This document shows positions 28,795 through 31,740 of a DNA stretch of 63,723 nt, piece after piece. Below the pieces are notes generated by a model. That model was given only the letters and a program-made list of their open reading frames with translations. It did no database searches and was not told where the DNA came from. The position numbers were made by a program, and so were the translations under genes. Position 1 is the first letter of the stretch. The number at the start of each line of letters is the position of its first letter. This DNA is from a virus: positions 1 to 63,723 of IMG/VR virus record IMGVR_UViG_3300037481_000553. One strand, given 5' to 3'.

Positions 28795-29163
28795 CTATGG
28801 ACGCTTAATGATAATCCGGAGGTTCGTGGCCTTCGCCGGCTGCACGAAGACGGTCACCAAGAAGGGATCAGACGCGGCTTCTCCCGCGGCATTGAAAGCG
28901 ATCACCAGGATGGTGTGATTGCCAGGCGTCAACGCTGGGAAGGGAATCTCACAGGTGCGCGGCGTGCCCGCGACACACGTGGGGGTGATGACGGTGACCG
29001 TCCCATCGATGGACAGCTTGTACCCATCGGTGTTGATGCCGTCATGGTCCCAACCGAGTTTTATCGTTGGCGGTGTCGGCGATGGCACCGGGGTCTGCGC
29101 CCAGCCGATTGCCGGGAGCAAAAGGCACAGCGTACACCACAGGACGACCATTCGTTTTCTCAC
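28795..29163 (-). CDS. Secreted protein with Ig/Fn3-like domain
   Basis: GTG at 29163 with AAGGAG six bases upstream gives MRKRMVVLWCTLCLLLPAIG, a signal peptide with an AIGWAQ-type cleavage site. The mature part (about 98 residues) has TIKLGWDHDGINTDGYKLSI and PGNHTILVIAFNAAGEAASD, a fibronectin III-like beta sandwich. It would go to the periplasm or outside. In the lysis module it may help disrupt the envelope or mark the host surface. It is the last gene before the terminator. Confidence 0.7.
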   Translation of the reverse strand: MRKRMVVLWCTLCLLLPAIGWAQTPVPSPTPPTIKLGWDHDGINTDGYKLSIDGTVTVITPTCVAGTPRTCEIPFPALTPGNHTILVIAFNAAGEAASDPFLVTVFVQPAKATNLRIIIKRP

Positions 29164-29374
29164 GGCGCACTCCTTTTCTTTCCAGGTAGCGGTTGTTGAT
29201 CTCGACTTCAATGCGATCCCCTTCCCAGTCCAGCCGCTCCTGCAACCGGCGGAGATGTTCGAGCGACGACGTGCCACACCGCACGTGTTCACTGATGACC
29301 ACGAGCTGACCAACTAGGTCGGCTATCAGATACCAGTGTTCTCTCGCTCGCTGGCGAATGGATAGTAGTCTCAC
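29042..29374 (-). CDS. Possible overlapping lysis-region gene
   Basis: GTG at 29374 is preceded by GGAGGAGCCG. The first 70 codons (VRLLSIRQRAREHWYLIAD, LEHLRRLQERLDWEGDRIE) look like a real helical, coiled-coil protein. The last 40 codons run in another frame over the signal-peptide gene. Overlapping genes are normal in lysis modules (Rz/Rz1), but no transmembrane segment or lipobox is obvious here. Confidence 0.45.
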   Translation of the reverse strand: MRLLSIRQRAREHWYLIADLVGQLVVISEHVRCGTSSLEHLRRLQERLDWEGDRIEVEINNRYLERKGVRREKTNGRPVVYAVPFAPGNRLGADPGAIADTANDKTRLGP

Positions 29375-29441: not shown

Positions 29442-29663
29442 CTAGCCCCCAATGCCGTTGCCGGGGTCACTGCTGACAGCGGGGTGCGAGGCGAGGAACT
29501 CCTCACCGACTTTGATCACCTCGTCCGCGATGGCAAGCAATTTGTCGTTCACTTGTTGTTCGGTCGGCATCGCCCCCGTGCGGGCGAAGTGATCCTTGAT
29601 GATGCCGAGCACGATGGACACGACGCCCCCCGGCTGGAGCAGGGCGAGGATGATCGGGTTCAT
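29442..29663 (-). CDS. 73-residue lysis-region protein
   Basis: ATG at 29663 overlaps the previous stop (ATGA) and follows GGGAGTGACGCC. The N-terminus MNPIILALLQPGGVVSIVLG is hydrophobic. The rest is an amphipathic helix (VNDKLLAIADEVIKVGEEFL) ending GNGIGG. It could be a small membrane-associated holin-class or antiholin-type protein. Assignment is by position only. Confidence 0.55.
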   Translation of the reverse strand: MNPIILALLQPGGVVSIVLGIIKDHFARTGAMPTEQQVNDKLLAIADEVIKVGEEFLASHPAVSSDPGNGIGG

Positions 29664-30271
29664 GGCGTCACTCCCACGAAACTCTGGAGCAACGCTGACA
29701 CGACCGCAAGGGCCGTCTGCAACGAGGGATTCTGAAGCGCGGTCTGCGGCAGTTTCGCCACCATCTCCAGATACCCGGTGTAGACCGTCTTCGCCCAGTC
29801 GTCTGGCACGGAGCGCAGGATTCGCGCCGACGACACACACCATCCGACGACGAACCGCGCCTGTTCCGTCGTCAAGACCTTCACGGCTTCTAGCTGGATC
29901 GCCACTGTCTCGACTTCCTGAATCCGGGTCAGCACCTGAGTCGCGTACCACCGCTGTTGCCCCGGCTCCGTCTGGATACTCGCCGGAGGCTTGCACGCAC
30001 CCAGTGCCAGCGCGGACAGCACGACGAAAGGGAGCACAACCTTGTTAGCGAGGTTCTGCACGTTGACCGTCTGGCCCGGATCGGTCTTGCCGACCCACGA
30101 CGCGCCGATCTTCCCCGTCACCGCCATTGCCGCGCCGAGCACGAGCATCAGCCACTTGTACGCGACGGGTCCGAGTCCGTAGTCGGCTGGGACCATCACA
30201 GAGCACACGGCAAACAGCGTCGAGAAGATGTAGAACAGTACGGACCATCCGGCCCAGTCATAGCCTTTCAT
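29660..30271 (-). CDS. Membrane protein with internal lipobox, holin/spanin candidate
   Basis: The 203-residue protein has two N-terminal spans (WSVLFYIFSTLFAVCSVMV and AYKWLMLVLGAAMAVTG), holin-like. Then PFVVLSALALGACKPP (81-96) reads like a lipoprotein signal with LGAC at 90-93. The remaining 110 residues are helical (LTRIQEVETVAIQLEAVKV). A holin-like part and an outer-membrane lipoprotein-like part may be fused or separately initiated; no internal ribosome-binding site is evident. AAGGAGAAGAC precedes the start, and it overlaps the REC gene by 4 bases. Confidence 0.6.
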   Translation of the reverse strand: MKGYDWAGWSVLFYIFSTLFAVCSVMVPADYGLGPVAYKWLMLVLGAAMAVTGKIGASWVGKTDPGQTVNVQNLANKVVLPFVVLSALALGACKPPASIQTEPGQQRWYATQVLTRIQEVETVAIQLEAVKVLTTEQARFVVGWCVSSARILRSVPDDWAKTVYTGYLEMVAKLPQTALQNPSLQTALAVVSALLQSFVGVTP

Positions 30272-30822
30272 GTCTTCTCCTTGAGCGCGAGCATCCGTGC
30301 GCTCTCGCTCATATCCAGAATTACGGTGAGGAGCCGAGCGTTTTCGCTGGCTAGTGAATCCAGTTCGGCACGGCGTTCGGAAATCTCGCCCAATAGAGCC
30401 TGATTCTGGGCGACTGCATCGTGGGCCACCCTGATCCTCCCCCGCACGGCCGCGAACCTGACCGCTTTCGCCAGCGCACACTGTAACGCCACCCCTTTCG
30501 TGATGAAGTCCTGTGCACCCTTCCGCACGGCGGAGTCGCCGAGCGCCGCCTCGTCAGACCCCGTCACGACCACCACCGGGAGGAACGGCGCTTTCGCCAT
30601 GATGGCGTGCAGCGTGGAGAGGCCCGTGCTGTCTGGCAGACCCAGATCCAGCACCACCACGTCGGGCGCGACGACGCCAACCAGGTTGAGTGCCAGCGCC
30701 AGGGTCGGCGCGATATGCACGGCGCGAACCCCGTCCGCGACGAGTGCGGCCACAGCCAGTTCGCAATCGCCGGTATTGTCTTCCACCACCAATACGCGCA
30801 GCGTGCTGTGAGTGCCGGTCAT
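30268..30822 (-). CDS. Response-regulator receiver-domain protein
   Basis: The protein has 184 residues. Residues 8-125 are a REC domain: LRVLVVEDNTGD (E14, D15), VVVLDLGLPD (phospho-acceptor D59), VVVVTGSDEA (T87) and AQDFITKG (K109). All residues needed for phosphorylation are present. Residues 130-184 form a coiled coil (NQALLGEISERRAELDSLAS) with no DNA-binding domain. It is embedded with 4-base overlaps between the holin-like and the membrane/lipobox genes. It could sense host phosphorelay state and time lysis, or titrate a host kinase. Both are inference. Confidence 0.82.
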   Translation of the reverse strand: MTGTHSTLRVLVVEDNTGDCELAVAALVADGVRAVHIAPTLALALNLVGVVAPDVVVLDLGLPDSTGLSTLHAIMAKAPFLPVVVVTGSDEAALGDSAVRKGAQDFITKGVALQCALAKAVRFAAVRGRIRVAHDAVAQNQALLGEISERRAELDSLASENARLLTVILDMSESARMLALKEKT

Positions 30823-31202
30823 TTCTTTACCACCAGTGCGAACAAGGCCGCGAGGATTCCGGTCAAAAGCGTGGCGACCGTGCCGTAGACGATGCGCTTG
30901 ATCTGGTCGTGTTCGGTCCTGAGCACCTCCCACTCAGGCCGCTTCACGTAGTCTTCCTTGATGGTCGCGTGCATGTGCTCGAGCGTCATCTCTATTGCGA
31001 CCAGACGAACGAGCAGATCGTCTGGGATGACCGTGTCGAGCCGGGTCAGTTTCGTGGAGATGTCGCCCAACTGCCCCTGCATGGCAAGGAGCGAGTTAGC
31101 GAGCGCGTGGCTGCGAGTCCGCAGACCCAGCAGTTCATTGTCCACCCGTGTCTCGGCGGAATTCACGTGCCCCTCGAACGGTTCCCGTGGGTTTTCGGCC
31201 AT
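30819..31202 (-). CDS. Holin-like protein with C-terminal membrane span
   Basis: The 127-residue protein starts MAENPREP at 31202, 4 bases after a strong AAGGGAGG; an upstream in-frame ATG at 31220 is less likely. Residues 15-100 form a coiled coil (SALANSLLAMQGQLGDIS-like region). The last 25 (IVYGTVATLLTGILAALFAL) are one membrane span followed by VVKK. Such tail-anchored coiled-coil proteins are encoded next to endolysins and serve as holins or accessory lysis proteins. Confidence 0.6.
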   Translation of the reverse strand: MAENPREPFEGHVNSAETRVDNELLGLRTRSHALANSLLAMQGQLGDISTKLTRLDTVIPDDLLVRLVAIEMTLEHMHATIKEDYVKRPEWEVLRTEHDQIKRIVYGTVATLLTGILAALFALVVKK

Positions 31203-31224
31203 GCCACCTCCCTTGTTCATATTC

Positions 31225-31740
31225 TCACCGCAAGAATTGCAGCACGCGGTTCACCCACCCGTGCCGCCATTTCAGGTTCGTTGTCTCGCACATCGCGTGT
31301 GGCACATCCGACACCATCGCATCGAGGAGGAGATGGAGTCGTGCTTTCACCATCTGGAGTCGAAACGCGGGTGTGGTGCATCTGAGAGCGGCGAGGGTAA
31401 TCGGACCGATGACCCCATCCACCGGAACGCCCAGCACTGACTGCAGCATCCTTGCAGACGTTTCCTGGCCCTGCAGCACGCCCGTGTCCACCACGAACCA
31501 CTGCACCCATGGGTCGTCCAGCATGTCGAATCGCCAGTCTGTGACGTACATCTTCTGGTAGAGCGCTCGTGCTTCCGGCTCCTCCAATGCCTCGACATCC
31601 GCAGCCGTGCACGGGTGTCCTCGATAGGCAGACAACCTCGCAAGCGTGATACCTCCTTTCGTCGGCCCACCGTGGTCGGCTGGGTCGTTGGTGTAACGCG
31701 GCCAGCCTTCACTCAAGAGCACAGCGTCGATGACCGTCAT
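31225..31740 (-). CDS. Endolysin, glycoside hydrolase family 108 muramidase
   Basis: The 171-residue protein is a peptidoglycan-cleaving lysozyme-like enzyme. The N-terminus LLSEGWPRYTNDPADHGGP and TKGGITLARL carries the GH108 signature, with Glu11 as the catalytic acid. A C-terminal peptidoglycan-binding-like part has LGVPVDGVIGPITLAAL. No signal peptide, so it needs the holin. The ATG at 31740 follows GGAGAGG; a longer frame from 31764 is less likely. Confidence 0.88.
   Translation of the reverse strand: MTVIDAVLLSEGWPRYTNDPADHGGPTKGGITLARLSAYRGHPCTAADVEALEEPEARALYQKMYVTDWRFDMLDDPWVQWFVVDTGVLQGQETSARMLQSVLGVPVDGVIGPITLAALRCTTPAFRLQMVKARLHLLLDAMVSDVPHAMCETTNLKWRHGWVNRVLQFLR

Follow-up and report, generated by a model that had tools for sequence, protein, structure and literature searches.

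The antiholins RI and RIII of phage T4 and S107 of phage lambda tune the timing of holin action, with superinfection or an alternative start as their inputs. How host physiology sets the time of lysis is an open question outside a few models. Receiver-domain (REC) proteins have been described in Alteromonas phages, where V22 gp30 and A5 gp11 were published as CheY-like (class II) auxiliary metabolic genes and assigned to a host-recognition module in which gp29, gp31 and gp32 were listed with unknown function (PMC7289586, PMC10579305). The V22 and A5 receiver gene was not found tied to lysis in openly licensed papers, and no description of a receiver or kinase linked with a holin or with lysis was found in the openly licensed literature, though earlier mention elsewhere is possible. 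Here, a phage locus is described in which a receiver gene lies beside a membrane coiled-coil gene and close to an endolysin gene, and its recurrence among uncultured and cultured phages is documented.

The locus is part of a 63,723-nucleotide viral stretch that was analysed as a whole (hereafter the window; IMG/VR record IMGVR_UViG_3300037481_000553) and that represents a genuine tailed phage, encoding terminase, helicase, primase and head proteins. Its features are as follows:

31225 to 31740, minus strand: GH108 endolysin with PG_binding_3 (Pfam 62.3 and 29.5 bits; PHROG 315 endolysin, E = 1.6e-24)
30819 to 31220, minus strand: 133-aa membrane partner with a coiled coil and one C-terminal transmembrane (TM) helix (sequence and hydropathy; the partner type that recurs with phage receivers)
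30268 to 30822, minus strand: receiver-domain protein of 184 aa (Pfam Response_reg, active-site residues and AlphaFold2)
30646 to 30648, minus strand: codon of the phospho-acceptor D59 (translation)
30274 to 30486, minus strand: C-terminal 71-residue helix, residues 113-183 (AlphaFold2 secondary structure)
29660 to 30271, minus strand: 203-aa membrane gene with two TM helices followed by a lipobox-like LGAC (sequence; no family match)

Along the minus strand, the GH108 endolysin comes first, followed by the 133-aa coil-plus-TM protein, the receiver and the 203-aa membrane protein, which leaves the endolysin one gene away from the receiver. The initial annotation of this DNA had given the same receiver coordinates with no strand; the gene lies on the minus strand, the plus strand at 30268-30822 being interrupted by stops. 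The 4-base overlaps that had been reported to both neighbours are real, with ATGA shared by the REC start and the stop of the 133-aa gene (30819-30822) and again by the REC stop and the start of the 203-aa gene (30268-30271). The REC start has no notable RNA structure (z = -0.11). The description of the 133-aa gene as holin-like holds for its architecture of coil and C-terminal TM helix but not for its profiles, as no holin or XhlA profile matches above threshold (best holin profile PHROG 689, E = 0.65). Its position makes the 203-aa gene a candidate for a holin, an outer-membrane lysis lipoprotein or both. A minus-strand ORF (28795-29313) downstream of the cassette has a signal-peptide-like start and fibronectin-III-like sequence, and a similar gene precedes the receiver of another phage locus (L116).

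The receiver matches Response_reg (PF00072) at 59.7 bits against a cut-off of 30.2, and its translation contains all five active-site residues exactly as first listed (E14, D15, D59, T87 and K109). AlphaFold2 predicts five alternating strands and helices with a mean pLDDT of 95.6, and PDB receivers match this model from E = 2.8e-9 in a structure search. The C-terminal coiled coil of the initial annotation corresponds in the model to one unbroken helix (residues 113-183), which runs on after alpha-5 to residue 183 and is presumed to form a rod for partner binding or dimerisation. Neither Pfam nor AlphaFold2 indicates a C-terminal DNA-binding domain in this protein, which consists of REC and one helix only. 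Several plasmid REC proteins resembling it have extra signalling domains after the same helix, and we infer that the phage protein looks like a receiver and signalling helix without the output domain. PHROG 731 (227 positions) was rejected as a specific family; it matched over the REC part only and looks like a general regulator family. In cellular genomes (L154-L157 and other loci), receiver relatives of the GAQDYLVKG type run into kinase or other signalling domains past the helix that ends the phage protein.

Searches of IMG/VR with REC alignments returned 74 and 70 loci, from which duplicates and 22 DNA-binding regulators were removed to leave 68 distinct phage receivers; the 22 regulators were kept aside as controls. 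Single-protein scans of viral contigs with the window REC and endolysin recovered no relatives, and a tblastn search of cultured phages with the window REC brought no useful matches. With TM helices and coils called by simple heuristics, a single-TM coiled-coil gene directly adjoins the receiver at 35 of the 68 loci, all of which lack a DNA-binding domain, and a C-terminal TM helix is fused to the receiver in 8 more. The background is 9 of 371 ORFs on the same contigs, and none of the 22 DNA-binding regulators lies beside such a gene. Receiver and coil genes often overlap by ATGA. When receivers are grouped at 45% identity, 35 of 54 clusters are positive, so close relatedness does not explain the pattern. 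The thresholds are conservative in places, with the coil-TM genes of L110, L136 and L146 falling just below the cut, and one call was false: at L011 an SLT gene was counted as the partner and the true coil-TM gene lies on the receiver's other side. A genome scan for the fused family was discarded, having returned ordinary bacterial regulators whose neighbours were not coil-TM genes (L168 possibly excepted). The AlphaFold2 model of a fused protein is reliable in the REC part only.

The membrane partners are more alike in architecture than in sequence. Across split and fused forms, and for N-terminal and C-terminal TM helices alike, K/R residues favour the coil side over the far side by 44 cases to 3, a charge bias that predicts a coil facing the cytoplasm, on the same side as the receiver. 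Fused and split partners resemble one another weakly at the profile level (14 bits at best, compared with 7.9 for shuffles), and no partner is recognised as a holin or antiholin; partners in other phages recurrently match PHROG 937 'hemolysin', at sub-threshold values (E 0.02-0.4). Membrane coils from Alteromonas phages of different families (L240:3699-3995 and L241:3630-3995) end in a common C-terminal tail, LMLHLMNQR or LTMHLLNQR, a candidate receiver-binding site.

Lysis genes lie close to many of these modules. Whole-record Pfam searches and direct scans located a peptidoglycan hydrolase at most about 1.2 kb from the receiver in seven uncultured phages, representing six families: GH108 in the window and in L148, SLT in L011, Amidase_3 in L110, Hydrolase_2 in L114, GH19 in L143 and GH24 in L149. 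Pfam detection replaced a regex that had missed true endolysins. Hydrolases are further off or within apparent virion proteins in L045, L111, L079, L039 and L098, many receiver records have no Pfam match to the hydrolase families searched, and for several of the large phages that encode a kinase the surroundings of the receiver yielded no endolysin. The L146 cassette includes an M15-like gene that made a convincing endolysin by eye. This gene has no Pfam support and was left uncounted.

Cultured cases were reached only through a BFVD fold search, which pointed to Alteromonas phage V22, the starting point for finding the other cultured phages. The PB15 cassette comprises a coil-TM gene, REC, an M15 endolysin and a 3-TM holin (PHROG holin, 138.7 bits), and that of XX1924 matches it except that DUF5675 takes the place of the endolysin. 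V22 and A5 have an N-TM coil, REC, an Rz-like spanin (PHROG 4297, E = 7e-6 and 3e-8, respectively) and a 2-TM holin-like gene, with an annotated endolysin in A5. An annotated class II holin, a 1-TM gene, REC and a membrane gene are present in H4/4 and R8W, while R9Y2 has an N-TM coil, REC and a GH108 lysozyme, each with a 4-base overlap, which are the window's own gene types. ATGA coupling runs straight to the endolysin genes in PB15 and R9Y2. The cultured receiver phages span Myoalterovirus, Schitoviridae, Autographiviridae and unclassified Caudoviricetes; Pseudomonas phages Y11 and Komp_PAO1_1 gave no sign of a lysis context. In XX1924, DUF5675 (L237:2438-2836 and L234:27828-28235) takes the slot that belongs to M15 in the sister phage PB15, and it is also present close to the V22 cassette; it may be an enzyme that acts on peptidoglycan. 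The search for homologues in other lysis modules that the initial annotation had proposed thus finds receivers adjoining endolysins of unrelated families and, in cultured phages, recognised holins and spanins; its view of the receiver as not a standard lysis component needs revising to that of a recurrent optional component.

The active site is largely conserved. Of the 70 metagenomic phage receivers compared (L149 and L153 in addition to the 68), 66 retain the acid pair, 65 the lysine and all 70 the T/S. Homologues lacking the phospho-acceptor Asp, named at the outset as what would refute the initial interpretation, did not appear: the residue is kept in 70 of 70, a figure biased by the search pattern behind most loci, which itself included the Asp, and also in the seven cultured phages and L149, all found without such a pattern. 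In one subclade (L030, L034 and L070), the second acid (D15 to G) and the lysine (K to P) are lost and the membrane coil partner is kept; these degenerate receivers are possibly phosphorylation-independent. The active-site lysine is also lost in L148, inside a lysis cassette. Between H4/4 and R8W, dN/dS is 0.16 for REC and 0.28 for the partner; the REC comparison of PB15 with XX1924 was saturated or misframed and was set aside.

A Pfam search of the window record found no histidine kinase (HATPase_c), and none scores above cut-off in the seven cultured phages. HATPase_c exceeds the cut-off in 13 of 38 records searched, including L012, L020, L026, L039, L048, L086, L088, L096, L107 and L113, and in L012, L020, L026 and L048 the kinase is encoded right beside the receiver module. 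All four are large phages, and the set in each comprises the adjacent histidine kinase, which in most has PAS or GAF, together with a membrane coil and one or two receivers, making up a complete two-component system that is encoded by the phage and has no DNA-binding output. Small phages, having no kinase of their own, would depend on host phosphodonors, and the coupling to a host phosphorelay first suggested for the window fits the lack of a kinase there and in the cultured phages.

We lean slightly towards a membrane-tethered phospho-switch that regulates phage lysis, inferring an effect on lysis and its direction from the association of receiver, coil and lysis genes that the loci display. 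The receiver would dock on the cytoplasmic coil of a small single-TM protein. In small phages its phosphoryl group would come from a host kinase or from acetyl phosphate, and in some large ones from the adjacent phage kinase. By analogy with REC-coiled-coil output proteins, phosphorylation may alter receiver dimerisation or the register of the coil, and the changed receiver would alter the action of the membrane protein on the holin. The membrane protein would most likely be an antiholin-like brake or timer because several cassettes already hold a separate recognised or annotated holin (PB15, XX1924, H4/4 and R8W), which makes the coil more likely a regulator than a hole-former, although the direction, brake or trigger, could go either way.

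Accessory genes often collect at the ends of late operons, and receiver and membrane coil might instead form a late signalling or membrane-defence module (e.g. for superinfection exclusion or envelope protection) that sits among lysis genes by chance. The receiver-coil-kinase sets of large phages, in which no adjacent endolysin was detected, and the failure of the coil protein to resemble any known holin agree with such a module, but repeated placement in cassettes with differing endolysins, spanins and holins in unrelated phages, together with the direct ATGA coupling to endolysin genes in PB15 and R9Y2, makes it unlikely. Somewhat less probable still is an auxiliary signalling gene or decoy that siphons phosphoryl groups off host kinases or feeds into pathways of the host, as proposed for V22 and A5 (PMC7289586, PMC10579305); this published annotation would suit small phages without a kinase and the conserved acceptor site, but a pure decoy is disfavoured because the partner is a dedicated TM coil, sometimes fused, that puts the output at the membrane, and because some large phages supply their own kinase, and the late, lysis-linked position also speaks against it. 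Least probable is that the single-TM coil is itself an XhlA-like holin triggered or blocked directly by the phosphorylated receiver, since its XhlA-like layout, the recurrent 'hemolysin' matches and the existence of fused REC-coil-TM proteins are outweighed by the separate 3-TM holins of PB15 and XX1924, the annotated class II holins of H4/4 and R8W and the lack of any XhlA or holin match at threshold.

Regulation of lysis by a membrane-tethered receiver would, if correct, let lysis timing receive sensory input directly, through a receiver that can be phosphorylated and is coupled to a membrane protein of the lysis cassette, and genes now filed as auxiliary metabolic or hypothetical would be reassigned. 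We put at about even the chances that this is a widespread and so far undescribed form of lysis control, in which a receiver tethered by a membrane coil gates the holin and timing reads the signalling of the host or of the phage's own kinase. As cultured phages that infect Alteromonas macleodii and its relatives carry the module, the proposal is testable now.

Several described systems share parts of this arrangement. V22 gp30 and A5 gp11 represent the same locus type, a receiver beside an N-TM coil gene, but the neighbours published as of unknown function here match an Rz-like spanin and a 2-TM holin-like gene, data that support reading the stretch as a lysis cassette. In its fold, its active site and the long helix that follows alpha-5, the window protein agrees with stand-alone CheY-like receivers and REC-coiled-coil proteins, and the solved structures of best coverage are receivers with a coiled-coil extension, namely a dual-sensor kinase (6oaq/6oap; TM-score 0.71), RssB (3f7a; 0.65), WspR (3bre; up to 0.63) and DgcR (6zxb; 0.60). 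Unlike these proteins, it has no enzymatic or DNA-binding output domain, and its partner is a phage membrane coil in a lysis cassette. XhlA-type accessory lysis proteins are likewise small single-TM coiled-coil proteins encoded next to an endolysin, whereas the phage coil partner has no Pfam or PHROG match at threshold and is paired with or fused to a receiver. With T4 RI and RIII and lambda S107, the module would share control of holin timing as its proposed role, but its input would be a phosphoryl group.
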